From positions 62,001 to 126,000 of the forward strand of contig CALUYE010000002.1 of assembly GCA_944324945.1 (NCBI GenBank): DNA of 64,000 nt, written 5' to 3'. Below, in pieces: positions 10,733-48,152 of this stretch (its first letter is position 1; every line of letters starts with the position of its first letter). This DNA comes from Candidatus Gastranaerophilales bacterium (GTDB lineage: Bacteria; Cyanobacteriota; Vampirovibrionia; Gastranaerophilales; Gastranaerophilaceae). The notes below the pieces were generated by a model, which was given only the letters and a program-made list of their open reading frames with translations, was not told the DNA's origin and ran no database searches. The position numbers and the translations under genes were made by a program.

Positions 10733-13700
10733 GTGAAATATACGTTTAACAACAAATATTTAAAGGATAATTCCAAACCCGGTTCTTTTAGAAGAGGATA
10801 TGAGACTTTTCAAAAAGGTTATGTTGAAGATTTAAAATTCAACGAAAATATTGTAAGAGCCAAGGTAAAAGGAAATTTTAAATCGCATTATGAAACAGGG
10901 ATTAAATTTACAAAAGCGGGCGCAAAACCGACTTGCAACTGCCCGCTTGAAGAACCCTGGTGTAAGCATGCCATTGCATTAGGCTTTGCATCTTTAAAGA
11001 ATCATTTCTGGGATGAATATCTTTATGAAAAATTTGATATTGAACCTAATTTAATCGATGAAGAACTTCCCATGAATGAAAACCCTATGGGTGATTTTAT
11101 ATTTCATTTTAACCCCAAGCGAAGGCAGAACTTTTTTTCGATTCTTGTTATGAACCGCCACACAAAAAAAGTAATCAGAGACCTTGAAGCGGTATTTAAG
11201 CAGATTATTTTAAAACAAAAAGAAGAAGAAAATTTTGAATTAAATAATTCGCAAAAGCTTGAAGTTTTAATGTTTAAAATGCTTTTAAAACAGTCAAGAT
11301 TAGATAAAAAATCGGGCTGGTACGATGTTTCAATTAATAAATTTGATGAATTTTTTAAGATTTTAGCAAAAGTTGACGATGTAATTGATGCAAAGACACA
11401 TAAAAAAATAAGATTTTCGGACAGTATCTGGAATTTGTGTCTTGATGTAAACGTTTCTTATGTTGGAAATGTTTTATTGAGTCTTTATTGGAAAAGAAAT
11501 GATATTGATGAGATTTATCCTTTTGAAGAAGTGAGATATTTTTCGCGCCAGCTAAAATGGGGCAGATATAAAGATGTTATTTTTCAGGCGGATACTCAAG
11601 TAAGCGTTGTTCCGCAGTATTTAACAAAAGCAAGTTTTTCCGATATCAAAGATGCTGACGGGGGTAAGTTTGTTTATGAAGAACTTCCGAAATTAAAGGA
11701 AGTCATGACGGTAAATATGTCGGAAGAAATGGAGAAACTTTCTTTTGAAAAACGACCGCCAAAATGCATTGTTGAGCTTGGTGTTGATTATGACCAGTCT
11801 TTAAAAGCTTCTCTTGAATTTGAATATGACGGAGTAAGGGTTCCTTATCAAAAACAGTATAAAAGCCCTTATGTTACAATTAAAGACCCGTCAAAAGATT
11901 TATTGTACTGGGTTAAAAGAGATATGCAATTTGAGCAATCGGCGTATCAAATGCTACTTGCTTGCAGGTTTGCGCCCGTTCAATCAAACAACCTTGCTCT
12001 TGATAAGGAATATGCTATAGATTTTTATAACTACTACATTTCAAAAGCAGGCCCCGGTTGGGAATTTATTGAAAAAGACGATTTATCTTTTTATAAATTA
12101 AATAAAAAAGGTTTAAAATTAATCGCGGATATTGATTTTTCTTCGGAAGGCACGGATAAATTTGAAATCTCGCTTCGTGCTATGGCTGATGAAAAAGAAG
12201 TAGATTTTGAAACAATTATTGATTTAACCTACGAAGGTTCAAAGTATTATAATGTTCCTCAAGGAGGCCAGGTTTCAATTCCTGTTGACGATGTTTTATC
12301 TTTATTAAAATCGTTTAATACTTATGATGTTTATAAAAACGATGAAGATAAATATATTGTTAAAACCTATAGAGCGGGTGTTGTGTCGGAAATGGAAAAA
12401 ATGGGAATAAATCTTAAGATGTCGCGTAAATTTTCGGCATTTTGGAAAGAAATTTCAACATTTTCTACCATGGATTCAACTCCTCTGCCTAAAGCTCTAA
12501 AAGCAGATTTAAGGGAATACCAGCTTAAGGGTTATTCTTGGTTGTGGTTTTTATACAAATACGGTTTAAATGGAATTTTGGCTGATGATATGGGGCTTGG
12601 TAAAACGGTTCAAACCCTTGCATTATTACAGCGCGCAAAAGAAAAAGACAACAAAGAAACTTCGCTTGTTATATGCCCTACAAGTGTTGTTTTTAACTGG
12701 GAAAAGGAAATTGAAAAATTCTCGCCCAATTTAAAATATATGACTTTAACAGGTTCAGATAGAAAAACCAAATTTAAAGATATTGATAAGTATGATGTTG
12801 TCATAACTTCTTATGCGCTTGTAAGGCGTGATATTGATGTTTTGAAAAAATATAAATTCAGATACGTCATTTTGGATGAATCTCAAAATATTAAAAACGC
12901 AACAAGCCAGACATCAATTGCAACAAAAGAATTAAATTCAACACACAGACTTGCGCTATCGGGTACCCCGATTGAAAATAAATTGGAAGAATTGTGGTCT
13001 GTTTTTGACTTTTTAATGCCCGGGTTTTTGTTTGATGCTAAGGAATTTAACAACAGATATGTAACTCCTATTGTGGAAAATGAGGATACGGAAGTTCAAA
13101 AGCGTTTAAAAACACAAATATTCCCGTTTATTTTAAGGCGTATGAAAAGAGATGTTGCGCGTGATTTACCTGATAAGATTGAATCGGTTGCATATTGCGA
13201 ATTAACACCCGAGCAAAAAGATTTATATCTTCAAGTTCTTGATTCAACAAAAGAAGAATTATTTAAGTCAATCGAAACAGTCGGTCTTGAAAAATCAAGA
13301 ATGTCTATTTTCTCGGCGCTTTTAAGATTGAGACAAATTTGTTGTCATCCGAGACTTTACGATAAAGAAGGTAAATTGGGAATTAATGACTCGGGTAAAT
13401 TTGAACATCTGCAAGATATGCTTGAAGAAATTATTGCGGAAAAACACAGAATTCTTCTGTTCTCGCAATTTGTCGGCATGCTTGATATTATAAAAGATTG
13501 GCTTGAAAAGAAAGGGATTAAACACGAATATCTTTCAGGCAAAACAAAAGACAGACAGGCTGTAGTTGACAGATTTAACAATGACCCTACAATTCCTGTA
13601 TTTTTAGTATCTTTAAAAGCGGGCGGTACGGGTCTAAATTTAACGGGTGCCGATTATGTAATACATTATGATCCTTGGTGGAATCCTGCTGTTGAAGATC

Positions 13701-13900
13701 AAGCAACGGATAGAGCTTATCGTATCGGCCAAACAAAGAAAGTTTTTGTTTACCGTTTGATTACAAAAAATACCGTAGAAGAAAAAATTCAGGCGCTGAA
13801 ATCTAAAAAACGCTCATTGGTTGATAGTGTAGTGTCAATTGACAGAAATATAGTAAAATCTCTTACTTATCAAGATATTAAAGATATATTCTCTTTGTAA
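10733..13900 (+). CDS. SWIM zinc-finger SNF2-family helicase
   Basis: A DNA-dependent ATPase of the bacterial SNF2/Rad54 group, 1055 residues. The N-terminus carries a SWIM finger (CNC at 68-70, then C77 and H79). A large middle region of unknown fold follows. The ATPase has motif I DDMGLGKT near 617-624, a DESQ Walker B near 715 instead of the usual DEAH/DEAQ, SGTPIENK motif III, and motifs V-VI with GTGLNL and ATDRAYRIGQ near the end. Such proteins are common in cyanobacteria and Firmicutes and are thought to remodel or clear protein from DNA. The start is GTG at 10733; no clear ribosome binding site is seen. The structured leader is described separately. Confidence 0.93.
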   Translation: MKYTFNNKYLKDNSKPGSFRRGYETFQKGYVEDLKFNENIVRAKVKGNFKSHYETGIKFTKAGAKPTCNCPLEEPWCKHAIALGFASLKNHFWDEYLYEKFDIEPNLIDEELPMNENPMGDFIFHFNPKRRQNFFSILVMNRHTKKVIRDLEAVFKQIILKQKEEENFELNNSQKLEVLMFKMLLKQSRLDKKSGWYDVSINKFDEFFKILAKVDDVIDAKTHKKIRFSDSIWNLCLDVNVSYVGNVLLSLYWKRNDIDEIYPFEEVRYFSRQLKWGRYKDVIFQADTQVSVVPQYLTKASFSDIKDADGGKFVYEELPKLKEVMTVNMSEEMEKLSFEKRPPKCIVELGVDYDQSLKASLEFEYDGVRVPYQKQYKSPYVTIKDPSKDLLYWVKRDMQFEQSAYQMLLACRFAPVQSNNLALDKEYAIDFYNYYISKAGPGWEFIEKDDLSFYKLNKKGLKLIADIDFSSEGTDKFEISLRAMADEKEVDFETIIDLTYEGSKYYNVPQGGQVSIPVDDVLSLLKSFNTYDVYKNDEDKYIVKTYRAGVVSEMEKMGINLKMSRKFSAFWKEISTFSTMDSTPLPKALKADLREYQLKGYSWLWFLYKYGLNGILADDMGLGKTVQTLALLQRAKEKDNKETSLVICPTSVVFNWEKEIEKFSPNLKYMTLTGSDRKTKFKDIDKYDVVITSYALVRRDIDVLKKYKFRYVILDESQNIKNATSQTSIATKELNSTHRLALSGTPIENKLEELWSVFDFLMPGFLFDAKEFNNRYVTPIVENEDTEVQKRLKTQIFPFILRRMKRDVARDLPDKIESVAYCELTPEQKDLYLQVLDSTKEELFKSIETVGLEKSRMSIFSALLRLRQICCHPRLYDKEGKLGINDSGKFEHLQDMLEEIIAEKHRILLFSQFVGMLDIIKDWLEKKGIKHEYLSGKTKDRQAVVDRFNNDPTIPVFLVSLKAGGTGLNLTGADYVIHYDPWWNPAVEDQATDRAYRIGQTKKVFVYRLITKNTVEEKIQALKSKKRSLVDSVVSIDRNIVKSLTYQDIKDIFSL

Positions 13901-42640: not shown

Positions 42641-43369
42641 ATGCAAAAAATTAAAGAATTTCAAGTTTTGATTTCATGTCTTTTAGTTTGTTTAGTTGTA
42701 TTGATTTCATCTTTAATTTTTGCATCAAAAATTCAGCGCAATGAAAATATCACGGTAACAGGTTCAGCCTATAAAATTGTTACATCAGACAGCGCTAAAT
42801 TAACCGTTCAGGTAAAAACAAAAGCACCTAATTTAAAAGATGCTTATGAAAAAATGAAAGTTCAACAGCCAAAAGTCGTAGACTATCTTTTATCAAAAGG
42901 TATAGATAAAAAAGATATCGAAATTAAAACCTTTGGCGGATATTATAACTATAAATCACTGCCCGGTGGCGGTACAAACATGAATGAACCTGTCAGCTAT
43001 AACGGCGAACAAAATATTGAATTTAAATCAAGTGATGTAAATAAAATTAAAGAAATTTCAACCGATATTCAAAATCTTACATCAAGCGGGCTTAATATCT
43101 GGGTTATGCAGCCTGAATATTATTATTCAGACTTAGGAAAAGTAAAAATTGACCTTTTAAAAGAAGCAGCGCTTGACGCTAAACAAAGAGCAGCTTCAAT
43201 GCTAAGTGCAACAGGTTCAAAAGTCGGCAAAGTACAACAAATGAAAATGGGCGTTTTTCAAATTACCCCTCCTGATAGCACCATGGTATCGGATTACGGC
43301 TATAATGACACAACAACAATAGACAAAAAAGTTACGGCAGTAACAAACGTTGTGTTTAAGGTTAAGTAG
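42641..43369 (+). CDS. SIMPL (DUF541) domain protein, membrane-anchored
   Basis: A 242-residue member of the same family as the gene at 9882. The N-terminus has one hydrophobic helix (residues about 8-30) without an obvious cleavage site, so it may be anchored. The SIMPL core is visible: ITVTGSAYKIVTSDSAKLTV at the start of the domain and AALDAKQRAASMLSATGSKVG near the end. Function in the family is uncertain. It is preceded by an AAGGAGAGG site. It stands alone, 72 bases after the possible partner gene. Confidence 0.85.
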   Translation: MQKIKEFQVLISCLLVCLVVLISSLIFASKIQRNENITVTGSAYKIVTSDSAKLTVQVKTKAPNLKDAYEKMKVQQPKVVDYLLSKGIDKKDIEIKTFGGYYNYKSLPGGGTNMNEPVSYNGEQNIEFKSSDVNKIKEISTDIQNLTSSGLNIWVMQPEYYYSDLGKVKIDLLKEAALDAKQRAASMLSATGSKVGKVQQMKMGVFQITPPDSTMVSDYGYNDTTTIDKKVTAVTNVVFKVK

Positions 43370-43376
43370 CTTTAAT

Positions 43377-44359
43377 ATGGAAAATATTATTTTAAATAAC
43401 AAAGTTATATAAAAGAGTAAATTTTAAACTTGAAGATAACCTTGAAGATTTGGTTGTGAAATATTCAAAAGAGATTTTTGGTAAAGATACTCTTTATTTT
43501 GATATCAAAAAAAAGAATGTCAAAAGATAGAATAATATCAATTCCGGATGCTTATTTAATTGATTTTACTTTTGAAAATGACCCTAAATTTTGCATTATT
43601 GAAAATGAACTAACACAGCATGACGTTTTTAAACATATCGGAGAGCAAATTTTAAAGTTCGATGTTTCTTATAAGGCAAGCGGTCATAAGCTTAAAGAAG
43701 TCATTTTAAGCGAAATTCAAAAAGATTCCAAAAAAGAAAATTTTATCAAAGAAAAAATTGTCAGGTCTCAATACCGTAATATTGACGATTTTTTAGAAGA
43801 TATAATTTTTAAAAAAGAACCGACATGTATTGTTGTAATTGATGATGATTCTTCGGAGCTGCAAAATGTCCTGAGCCGTTTAAAAATAAATACTGATACA
43901 GTGATTTTCCAAGCATTTAAAAACGGTTCTGATTATGCCTATAAATTCACCCCTTTTCAGGATGAAATAAGAGAAATTGAGGACAATATGCCAAAAGTAA
44001 ACATTGATGAACTCGATACAATAATTGTCCCCGCGCGTGAAGAAGGCTTTAATAGAGTATTTTTGGGTGAAAATGCATGGTATGCAATAAAAATATCGTC
44101 ATCAATGATACCAAAAATTAAATATATTGCATCTTATCAAACAGCGCCTGTTTCCGCAATAACTTATTTTGCACAGGTTGATAAAATTGAAAAATATCAG
44201 GATAGCGCAAAATATATAATATATTTTAAAGAACCTGCAAAAAAACTTCCAAAATCGGTTAAAATAGGCAAAAACAGTGCTCTTGCGCCGCAAGCTCCAA
44301 GATATGTCAATTTTAACAAATTATCAAACGCAAAAACGCTTGATGATATTTTTAAATAA
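43377..44359 (+). pseudogene. Frameshifted gene for a PD-(D/E)XK nuclease-like protein
   Basis: Coding sense continues across three frames. Frame A: ATG at 43377 gives MENIILNNK, then hits a stop at 43410. Frame C takes over at 43405 (LYKRVNFKLEDN, ending FDIKKK), through an A8 run at 43507-43514, and stops soon after. The third frame continues from 43514 as MSKDRIISIPDAYLIDF to 44359. Deleting one base near 43404 and one A from the A8 run would give a single protein of about 326 residues. The core IPDAYLIDF...IENELTQHDVFKHI looks like a nuclease-type PD...ExE site, and homologous proteins with this exact order (as I recall the family) start with the frame A peptide. Either two real mutations, ribosomal slippage at A8, or sequencing error. 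The longest intact piece alone (43514-44359) could still be made. Confidence 0.6.
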
Positions 44360-45430
44360 TCAGTCTTTAATTGATTTTATAAATTCAAGTTTTGATTTTG
44401 TTGTCAAATAAAGGTCTTTGTAAGTTGTTTTATGATTTTGCAGAATTATTTTTTGTAATTCATCAATTGCGATAAATTTTTCAAATTGATTGAAATCGTT
44501 TATATTTCTTGTGCACATTTTAAAAAGAACGGTGTATAGTTTTCTTTTTAGTTTTGATATTATTGAAGAATTGACACATTCTTTTCTTTTATTTGAATGT
44601 GATGAAATAATTATATCTTTTGGCATATTCATAAAATTTGAATACTGCAAGCGCGCAAATTCTTCTTCTTTATTTTGTACATTAATTTCAATATTTTCAA
44701 AAGAAAGTTTTTTAAGAGGAAAAATCGTTTCTTCATTGAAAAAACCATAAATTGATAGAATATAGTTATCTATATTATCGGGGCCATAGAATATTTTTTT
44801 GCTTGTTTTGTCAAATATGGGATTGTTTTCAATTTCATTGTTAAAAAATTCAATAACTTTACCCCAGTTATCTATGGATAATTTTTTATATTTTAAATAT
44901 TCAACATACTTTTTATATTCTTCTATTGTTAAATCTTCCCTGTATCTGTCATGCGCAAATATATCGATATTGACGCAGTTGTTGATATCTTTTCCGTAAA
45001 TTAATTGAATATGATGCGGAGTTTGGGAATATAGAATTTGATTGGGATATTTTTTTAAATATTTATCCCAAACAAGCGAGCGGTTGTCTAATGAGAAGAA
45101 AATTAAGGAAGGAGGGATATATTTAAAAGTTTTATTACAAAAATTCAGAAATTTATTGTAATCTTCTCTCATCATTCCTAAATCAAAATCATCATCCCAA
45201 GGCACAAACCCACTGTTTCTGATTGCACCGATTAAAGTCCCGCCTATCGGGAAATAAGGGATATTTAGAGAATCAATATATGAAATAATTGTTTTTGCAA
45301 AATCAAGTACAGATAGCTGGTATTTTCTTAAATTACCTTCTGCGCATTTAAGATTTTTGGCGTCAAGAGTTTTATATATTTCTTTATATTCTTTTATTGT
45401 TTTTTTATAAAGTTTTTTATAGTCGTTCAT
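44360..45430 (-). CDS. LicD-family phosphotransferase
   Basis: A 356-residue protein of the LicD/fukutin nucleotidyltransferase-fold family, which transfers phosphocholine or similar groups to surface glycans. The signature GGTLIGAIRNSGFVPWDDDFD is intact in two parts (GGTLIGAIRN; PWDDDFDLGM, with three catalytic Asp). The rest is specific to the host lineage and rich in Lys and Asn. It is the last gene of a minus-strand cluster with two FkbM methyltransferases. Its stop abuts the end of the frameshifted gene on the other strand. Confidence 0.85.
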   Translation of the reverse strand: MNDYKKLYKKTIKEYKEIYKTLDAKNLKCAEGNLRKYQLSVLDFAKTIISYIDSLNIPYFPIGGTLIGAIRNSGFVPWDDDFDLGMMREDYNKFLNFCNKTFKYIPPSLIFFSLDNRSLVWDKYLKKYPNQILYSQTPHHIQLIYGKDINNCVNIDIFAHDRYREDLTIEEYKKYVEYLKYKKLSIDNWGKVIEFFNNEIENNPIFDKTSKKIFYGPDNIDNYILSIYGFFNEETIFPLKKLSFENIEINVQNKEEEFARLQYSNFMNMPKDIIISSHSNKRKECVNSSIISKLKRKLYTVLFKMCTRNINDFNQFEKFIAIDELQKIILQNHKTTYKDLYLTTKSKLEFIKSIKD

Positions 45431-45859: not shown

Positions 45860-46981
45860 CTATTTATTCAATTCATCGGGTATGGCATAAATTACGCTTT
45901 CGCAGTAATTATAAGAGTAATGACCAAGGTAGAATTTATAATTTTTAAGGTGTGATTTTAAATAAATCGGAATATTAACAAAATCATCGTTTGAATGATA
46001 TATTGAAATTGCAAGCTGGGGTCTGTCTTTTGCTATTGTTTCTGCTGCACCATAAAGCGCATATAATTCTGAACCTTCTATATCCATTTTAATAAAATCC
46101 GCTTTTTTATTTTTTTCTTTTCTGATGTTATCAATGCTTTGCGCTTTTATTTTATTTAGAATTTCGTTTTTATTTTGTTCTTTAACCCCCTTAACACCGC
46201 GAACTCTTGAAGCGGCACTGCTTGCCGTATTTTCAAAAAAGTCAAGTTCGCATTCTTTATCCCACATAGCGTTTGGGATAATTTCGACAAAATTTCCCTT
46301 TGTTAAAAAGTAATCGAAATTTTTGTCTTTAAATTTATCGTACATAGGTTCAAACGCATATATTTTTTGAAGGTTGGGTAGTTCTTTTTTAAAAGCAAGC
46401 GCATGGATTCCGTTGCAAAATCCCCCGTCATATATTGTTTCAATTGCATCTTTATTTATGTATTCAAGATATTGTTTAAAATAATCTCTAAAATATCCTG
46501 TTTTTGAGATATTGTATTTATTTGATACATAATTTTCAACTTCGCTATAGTTTTTAATTCCTCTTTTGCAATCCCATAATAAATTATAAAGCTCTTTATT
46601 TTCCCTTGTTTCAAAAACCATAAGTGCCTGTTTTTGTTTATCGTTAAATTTCATTGTGCGAATATAGGATTCTAATTTTTTGGGTATCACCAAATGGTTA
46701 ATCCCTAAATATTTAAATATTGCATCTGTGTGGCATGAAGCTTGTCTTACGGTAATCAGCGCGGTGTCGATTTTGTTTTTATGGTTTTCAAAATCTTTTA
46801 TATTTATAACTTTCAAGCCGTCTTTAATTGAATTACCTTTATATGAATCAATAAAAAATTCAATTTCAACATCTTTTCTATTTGTCTCTATATAATCCCT
46901 TATGACCTCAGCACAGCTTCCTGCGCCATATAGGGCAATTTTTGCATTCTTTTTAATTTTATCCGTAAATTCTTTTAGCAT
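45860..46981 (-). CDS. FkbM-family methyltransferase with N-terminal nucleotide-binding domain (copy 2)
   Basis: 373 residues in two parts. Residues 1-100: a Rossmann-like domain (KIALYGAGSCAEVIRD, EFFIDSYKG). Residues about 180-370: an FkbM methyltransferase (TIYDGGFCNGIHALAF as the SAM loop, IYAFEPMYDKF, DFIKMDIEGSELYALYGA, LAISIYHSNDDF). FkbM enzymes O-methylate sugars and other small groups. A linker in between has no match. It is close to the neighbouring copy in order and sequence, so the pair arose by tandem duplication. It lies 52 bases after the first copy. Confidence 0.85.
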   Translation of the reverse strand: MLKEFTDKIKKNAKIALYGAGSCAEVIRDYIETNRKDVEIEFFIDSYKGNSIKDGLKVINIKDFENHKNKIDTALITVRQASCHTDAIFKYLGINHLVIPKKLESYIRTMKFNDKQKQALMVFETRENKELYNLLWDCKRGIKNYSEVENYVSNKYNISKTGYFRDYFKQYLEYINKDAIETIYDGGFCNGIHALAFKKELPNLQKIYAFEPMYDKFKDKNFDYFLTKGNFVEIIPNAMWDKECELDFFENTASSAASRVRGVKGVKEQNKNEILNKIKAQSIDNIRKEKNKKADFIKMDIEGSELYALYGAAETIAKDRPQLAISIYHSNDDFVNIPIYLKSHLKNYKFYLGHYSYNYCESVIYAIPDELNK

Positions 46982-47033
46982 ATTCTTTCCTTTTGTTTGA
47001 TTATATCAGTTCCAAAAAGACAATTTAATAATG

Positions 47034-48152
47034 TTAAGCATTTTTATCAATTTCACATGGAATTGCATACAATACGGTGTCGCAGCCTGAAGGCATGTAA
47101 TGACCCAGGTAGAAGTTGTAATTTTTTAATTTTGAATTTAAATAATTCGGGATCTCAATAAAATCTTTTGTAGAATGATATATTGAAATTGCAAGCTGAG
47201 GTCTGTCTTTTGTAATTGAATTAATTGCACCTTGCAGGGCATATAGCTCAGAACCTTCTATATCCATTTTAATTAAATCTATTTTGGAATTTTCTTTTTG
47301 TCTTATTTTATCAATCGTTGTTGTTTTAATTTTTGTTGTCGGTTTATGGTTTTTTGGATTTTGATTATTATCTATTATTCTCGATGCTTCATTATTTAAA
47401 TTATCCTCATAAAATTCAAGCTCGCACTCATTATTATAAAGCCCGAGAGGTATTATTTCTGCAATTGAATCTTTATTTATAAAATGTTCAAAAATTTTAT
47501 TTTTAAATTTATCATACATAGGTTCAAACGCATAAATTTTTTGCAGATTTGGTAATTCTTTTTTAAATATAAGGGAATTTATTCCGTTATAAAATCCGCC
47601 GTCGTATATTGTTTTAATTGTGTTTTTATTAATGTATTCAAGATATTGCTTAAGATAATTTCTTGCAAGCGTATTTCTTGAAATTGAGTGCTGTTTTAAA
47701 ACATATTCTTTAATTTCATTGATTTCTTTTTGCCCTGTTCTATAGTCCCAGAGAAGATTGTAGAGATCTTTTGATTCTTTTGTTTTAAAAATTTGAGATA
47801 TTGCTTTTTGTTTATCGTTAAAATTCAGAGTTCTTATATATTTTTCAAAATTTTCCGTTATTACAACGGCTTTAATTCCTAAATACCCTAAAAGTGCATA
47901 TATTTCATAGTTTTTAGGGCGAATTGTTATAATTGCGCAGTCGATTTCATTTTTATGATTTTCAAGCTCAAGTATATTTACAATTTTAAGTCCTTCAAAG
48001 TTTCCTGTTTTATTTGAATCAATAAAAAATTCGATTTTTACATCTTTTCTTTTTTCTTCTATATGGTTTTTAATAAAGAGCGCTGTAGTGCCTGCGCCGT
48101 AAAGTGCTATTTTTGAATTTTTATCAATTTTATTAAGAAGTTCCTTAAGCAT
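47034..48152 (-). CDS. FkbM-family methyltransferase with N-terminal nucleotide-binding domain (copy 1)
   Basis: 372 residues, tandem paralogue of the next gene. The N-terminal domain has KIALYGAGTTALFIKN and EFFIDSNKTG; the methyltransferase part has TIYDGGFYNGINSLIF, IYAFEPMYDKF and DLIKMDIEGSELYALQGA. The two differ most in the middle linker and in residues near the substrate pocket (CNGIHAL versus YNGINSL), suggesting different sugar targets. First large gene of the cluster; the membrane protein at 48164 lies just upstream by 11 bases. Confidence 0.85.
   Translation of the reverse strand: MLKELLNKIDKNSKIALYGAGTTALFIKNHIEEKRKDVKIEFFIDSNKTGNFEGLKIVNILELENHKNEIDCAIITIRPKNYEIYALLGYLGIKAVVITENFEKYIRTLNFNDKQKAISQIFKTKESKDLYNLLWDYRTGQKEINEIKEYVLKQHSISRNTLARNYLKQYLEYINKNTIKTIYDGGFYNGINSLIFKKELPNLQKIYAFEPMYDKFKNKIFEHFINKDSIAEIIPLGLYNNECELEFYEDNLNNEASRIIDNNQNPKNHKPTTKIKTTTIDKIRQKENSKIDLIKMDIEGSELYALQGAINSITKDRPQLAISIYHSTKDFIEIPNYLNSKLKNYNFYLGHYMPSGCDTVLYAIPCEIDKNA

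Follow-up and report, generated by a model that had tools for sequence, protein, structure and literature searches.

A frame-disrupted copy of a predicted accessory restriction nuclease, from a family present in bacteria and archaea, in Candidatus Gastranaerophilales

Positions 43377-44359 on the forward strand of the 64,000-nucleotide stretch analyzed here (the window) most probably carry an accessory restriction nuclease gene of a laterally spread family, in a copy that has recently been inactivated or has lost its N-terminus, a reading to which we assign a probability of about 0.65. By reading the frames directly, we found that each of the three forward frames encodes its own segment of protein at this locus. 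The features discussed below are as follows.

42641-43369, forward strand: upstream neighbor, encoding a SIMPL (DUF541) protein, present in all but one of the genus's 28 genomes (27, with the window genome included)
43377-43412, forward strand: segment 1, which opens with an ATG and encodes residues 1-11 (MENIILNNKVI) before a TAA stop at 43410-43412; residue 1 of intact relatives aligns at this segment
43408-43510, forward strand: segment 2, in the second frame, residues ~11-45, covering helix alpha-1 of the nuclease fold and the first core strand, with E19, E23, F34, G35, Y40, and K44 kept
43478-44359, forward strand: segment 3, in the third frame, the longest ORF, from residue ~46 to the C-terminus
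43507-43514, forward strand: A8 tract, in which the second register change falls
43547-43609, forward strand: predicted catalytic motif D...ExE (IPD and ENE), from columns invariant in 46 members (D57, E75, and E77 in L002 numbering) and from the fold match
44000-44335, forward strand: C-terminal PUA-superfamily domain (ASCH/EVE/YTH-like), from fold matches; also seen fused to GIY-YIG nucleases
44360-45430, reverse strand: convergent downstream neighbor, encoding a LicD-family protein, at the end of a glycan-modification cluster

The disrupted gene starts 7 bp past the SIMPL gene, and the convergent LicD gene follows directly. Translation of the frame beginning at 43378 yields YKRVNFKLEDNLEDLVVKYSKEIFGKDTLYFDIKKK, and the frame beginning at 43379 is open as far as the TAA codon that ends at 44359, with an ORF of 293 amino acids if read from a TTG at 43478 or 280 amino acids from an ATG at 43517. 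Near the LicD gene, positions 45860-48152 hold two adjacent, similar genes for FkbM-type methyltransferases, possibly a tandem duplication within the glycan cluster.

A preliminary description had read this interval as one protein spread over three frames, and its coordinates were right. By using a custom-written, frameshift-aware protein-to-DNA alignment with the intact relatives L003 and L015 (and also L016) as queries, we could map residues 1-325 of L003 and L015 to 43377-44353. The alignment contains no amino-acid gaps, and the register shifts by one base exactly twice, at 43407 and at 43504; with L016, the second change is placed at 43507. The L003 alignment scores 1111, versus 1006 when shifts are disallowed. 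For the N-terminal 46 residues, alignment to 43370-43530 scores 131, whereas none of 100 shuffles exceeded 35, and segment 2 matches the relatives at E 3.5e-10. The intact copies L002 and L015 yielded zero shifts by the same procedure. The earlier proposal of two changes of one base each is confirmed. Its restored protein of 326 residues likewise agrees with intact relative L002, which is 326 amino acids long. The frame is broken relative to that of the homologs, as in a pseudogene.

Among the 46 aligned sequences, 45 are encoded in a single frame, and the window copy is the sole exception. The preliminary description had favored decay as the leading reading, as do we, and had asked whether the third-frame ATG might be the natural start of the gene. 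The single-frame relatives argue against such a start: nearly all full-length ones have their start at residue 1, the position of the ATG at 43377, or no more than a few residues away. The same observation weighs against the idea that the third-frame ORF encodes a shortened protein that still functions, such as a reader that binds modified DNA and does not cut it, made from TTG 43478 or ATG 43517. This ORF does stay open for 280-293 well-conserved codons, and its C-terminal domain is a module that also occurs with GIY-YIG nucleases. However, a naturally truncated, conserved form was not seen among the relatives, and when the sequence was read, neither internal start was seen to have a convincing ribosome-binding site. 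We consider a functional truncated product improbable.

The broken copy is otherwise well preserved. It keeps all six near-invariant residues of the out-of-frame segment and, downstream of that segment, 44 of 45 strongly conserved positions, the one deviating column being ordinary for the family. Differences from L002, L003, and L015 within the segments still fall predominantly at third codon positions. This residual conservation and third-position bias indicate that the breakage is either recent or not real, and conservation this strong could equally mean wrong base calls in an intact gene.

Base-calling or assembly errors might account for one or both register changes, and the retention of conserved residues in all three segments, together with the position of the second change in an A8 tract, a classic site for indel errors, is in keeping with such errors. 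The first lesion, in contrast, lies outside any homopolymer. We judged the rate of frameshift errors on the window plus 100 kb of flanking sequence, and a strict comparison with 21 sister stretches covers nine genes. The surrounding sequence is 93% coding, and the 164 kb contain 26 runs of at least eight A or T residues inside intact ORFs. Approximately 10 genes could be compared near full length with the sister genome G026, and all are unbroken and in a single frame. To produce two errors in ~100 bases, the error rate would have to be higher than the neighboring genes suggest. We regard sequencing or assembly error as less likely than decay, though with an appreciable probability.

The preliminary description also raised the possibility that the A8 tract supports slippage and hence controlled expression. 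The tract is real, at 43507-43514, but is ordinary: runs of A8 or T8 occur 15 times in the 64-kb window. There is precedent for rescue at an A tract, in that transcriptional slippage on an A11 tract restores the frame of tssM1 in Citrobacter rodentium (PMC4256274). Production of the full-length protein here by slippage, whether programmed or leaky and whether on the ribosome or during transcription, would, however, require two independent slips, and the first lesion site, GTTATATAAAAG, has no homopolymer, slippery run, or recognized recoding signal. Among relatives, the A run at the second site varies in length from 2 to 8, and L016 (1893-2870) and L024 (425-1402) carry A8 at the homologous codons (DIKKR) yet remain in frame, so the A8 was rejected as a conserved slip site. 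These observations indicate that the tract arises where an AT-rich genome (GC 0.32) encodes a conserved lysine-rich motif. The direction is also unfavorable: in Escherichia coli and Buchnera, A/T runs favor insertions during transcription, and deletions, which are what would be needed here, are rarely associated with them (PMC5574713). No programmed-frameshift layout is conserved in the other 45 aligned members. We conclude that expression through slippage is very unlikely, and the suggestion of controlled expression is not upheld.

The distribution of the gene fits the decay of an accessory gene. It is missing from the other genomes of the genus (27 same-genus genomes). In G026, the closest sister examined, the 669-145-SIMPL order is kept and is followed by a different gene set, indicating that the window gene is an accessory insertion. 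The idea of a core gene broken only in the window strain was rejected, given its absence from sister genomes. Intact copies, 68% and 65% identical, are carried by G235 (L002/L013) and G241 (L003/L014), genomes that belong to a different genus of the family and whose records bear the name Candidatus Gastranaerophilales. A scan of genome contigs recovered 50 loci, of which 24 align over nearly the full query with at least 49% identity and most others show 34-44%; they span Bacteroidota, Chloroflexota, Proteobacteria, Aminicenantes, Methanophagales, and Heimdallarchaeota, among others. Intact members are ~325 amino acids long, and the family is found in both bacteria and archaea. Viral contigs gave 99 pattern matches and no true relatives, and no relatives were found in phage records. 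Plasmids contributed only the C-terminal domain, located behind GIY-YIG nucleases on a Tolypothrix plasmid and a Magnetococcus plasmid, which marks this domain as a portable module.

Other copies are broken as well. A member in an Acidobacteria MAG (L057, 6001-7005) has an in-frame stop near codon 36 and otherwise reads cleanly, L061 is a truncated copy, and in L004 (713-1650, reverse strand) what is probably a GIY-YIG nuclease lies next to the same C-terminal domain but in a different frame, as if one GIY-YIG/ASCH gene had been split. These three loci suggest that such genes are often lost, and loss is common among restriction genes. A distant homolog of the nuclease domain, in L005 (1336-2361), has a DUF5655 C-terminus and matches the PADLOC model PDC-S18 through that different C-terminal part.

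Searches by sequence did not place the family. The window ORF has no match in Pfam, NCBIfam (searched with the window ORF only), or PADLOC, and its best hits are only E 0.017 in PHROGs and E 0.39 in the PDB; nine full-length relatives gave no convincing family match in Pfam or PADLOC. An intact relative was modeled with AlphaFold2 from the 46-sequence alignment (mean pLDDT 92, pTM 0.87). In VIA-align comparisons, whose Z values of 7-9 here lie near the level flagged by that program as a possible common arrangement, the N-terminal half matches NucS/EndoMS (2vld, Z 9.1; 5gke, Z 8.9), FokI (Z 8.5), and SduA (Z 8.3); residues 17-181 of the model align with NucS/EndoMS at Z 8.9-9.1, and SduA and FokI align over overlapping ranges at Z 8.3-8.5. 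Residues 208-319 align with ASCH, EVE, and YTH structures at Z 6.7-8.5, including ASCH (Z 8.5), EVE 2p5d (Z 8.5), EVE 2hd9 (Z 8.0), YTH (Z 7.9), and the EVE domain of VcaM4I (6yex, Z 7.6). Independently, Foldseek also ranks ASCH at the top for the C-terminal domain, though only at E 0.002. SRA structures are not among the fold matches listed, an absence that carries no weight against an SRA relationship.

The modeled core fold and the D...ExE site formed by D57, E75, and E77, invariant in 46 members, place the N-terminal half in the PD-(D/E)XK superfamily, with catalysis predicted; the PD-(D/E)XK-like core had been anticipated from the letters of the window. BamHI also has an ExE variant of this active site. 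As modeled, the beta-barrel of the C-terminal half belongs to the PUA superfamily (ASCH/EVE/YTH), and the predicted protein has a type IV-like architecture, in which a putative modified-base sensor fold is fused to a nuclease fold. The C-terminal domain and the restriction context of the family are features that go beyond the preliminary description.

The relatives adjoin restriction genes of several kinds. Among 80 of their neighbors, we counted ResIII (9), Eco57I (8), N6_Mtase (7), and type ISP C-terminal (4) domains, as raw counts with no background set, and numerous neighbors match PADLOC restriction-modification models. HsdR lies 4 bp upstream in L060, and a type III Res subunit lies 12 bp upstream in L018, with neighbors of the same size in L021 and L033. 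Other neighbors include a type ISP protein (L042), an N6_N4 methylase (L046), a DndB-like protein (L028), Piwi (L032), a reverse transcriptase (L043), and type IIG restriction genes. In G235 (C1:230134-234503), two tandem C5-cytosine methyltransferase genes and a NOV_C gene precede the intact nuclease gene (L013) in one same-strand cluster, possibly an unnamed restriction-modification locus, and in G463 a C5-methyltransferase gene lies ~1.1 kb from the nuclease gene. From these restriction-gene neighbors, we read the family as an accessory restriction nuclease that senses modification. Within the window itself, PADLOC reported matches to DpdE and ZorD, which we rejected as most likely reflecting a generic SNF2 helicase; a 1055-amino acid protein at 10733-13900 is probably the SNF2 helicase responsible for these model matches.

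In the mechanism that we propose, the C-terminal domain would bind a modified base, probably via base flipping, and the nuclease domain would then cut the DNA carrying it, giving nearby restriction-modification systems a backup against phages whose bases are modified. Because some members lie beside 5mC or m6A methyltransferases, the putative reader could not recognize those marks in the contexts used by its host without self-damage; since hosts methylate their own DNA, the mark that is read should differ from the host's own. In the window strain, the two single-base register changes, both within the first 140 bases, would block full-length translation, and the largest possible product, of 280-293 amino acids, would lack both the first core strand and helix alpha-1, to which the conserved residues E19 and E23 belong. 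Given these missing elements, such a product would probably not be an active nuclease; its reader domain would be whole and perhaps would retain the predicted binding function. The analysis itself shows the disruption, the homology, the predicted fold, and the genomic context, from which the substrate, the mechanism, the loss of activity, and the recency of the breakage are proposed.

Modification-dependent enzymes that join a PUA-superfamily sensor to a nuclease are an established class (PMC7897488, PMC11037411). The present family resembles enzymes of the PvuRts1I type (PD-(D/E)XK-SRA) in having an N-terminal PD-(D/E)XK nuclease and a C-terminal PUA-superfamily sensor (domain order from PMC7897488), but its sensor resembles ASCH, EVE, and YTH rather than SRA among the matches listed. 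Like VcaM4I, a 5mC/5hmC-dependent EVE-HNH enzyme whose EVE domain is among those aligned above, it joins such a sensor to a nuclease, although the nuclease fold differs and the domain order is reversed. Fusions of a restriction-type nuclease to ASCH have already been noted, near Orc/Cdc6 and DndG-like genes (PMC10853773). At the level of domain description, these share with the present family the joining of a nuclease to an ASCH-type domain and the mobile defense neighborhoods, and they differ in being described with Orc/Cdc6 partners. The mismatch endonuclease NucS/EndoMS provides the best N-terminal fold match, yet identity is at most 14% over ~110 residues and the C-terminal half is unrelated. 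A PDB search found no sequence match between the family and solved structures.

A broader proposal, which we put forward tentatively as possible rather than probable, is that the family represents an undescribed restriction accessory class shared between domains of life, in which a D...ExE nuclease reads a modified base via an ASCH/EVE-like domain and is encoded directly behind restriction subunits of many restriction-modification types, with the window copy being shed, possibly via conflict with host DNA methylation. The window genome contains N6_Mtase genes and no PF00145 gene, and so a conflict with its own methylation remains speculation.

Gene decay of the kind proposed here is ordinary, and greater interest attaches to the gene family: a widespread nuclease-plus-reader family of ~325 amino acids, without a Pfam or PADLOC model in the members scanned and located beside several types of restriction systems. 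If its members do sense modified DNA, they would supply new modification-dependent enzymes ready for use and fill a gap in catalogs of defense genes.
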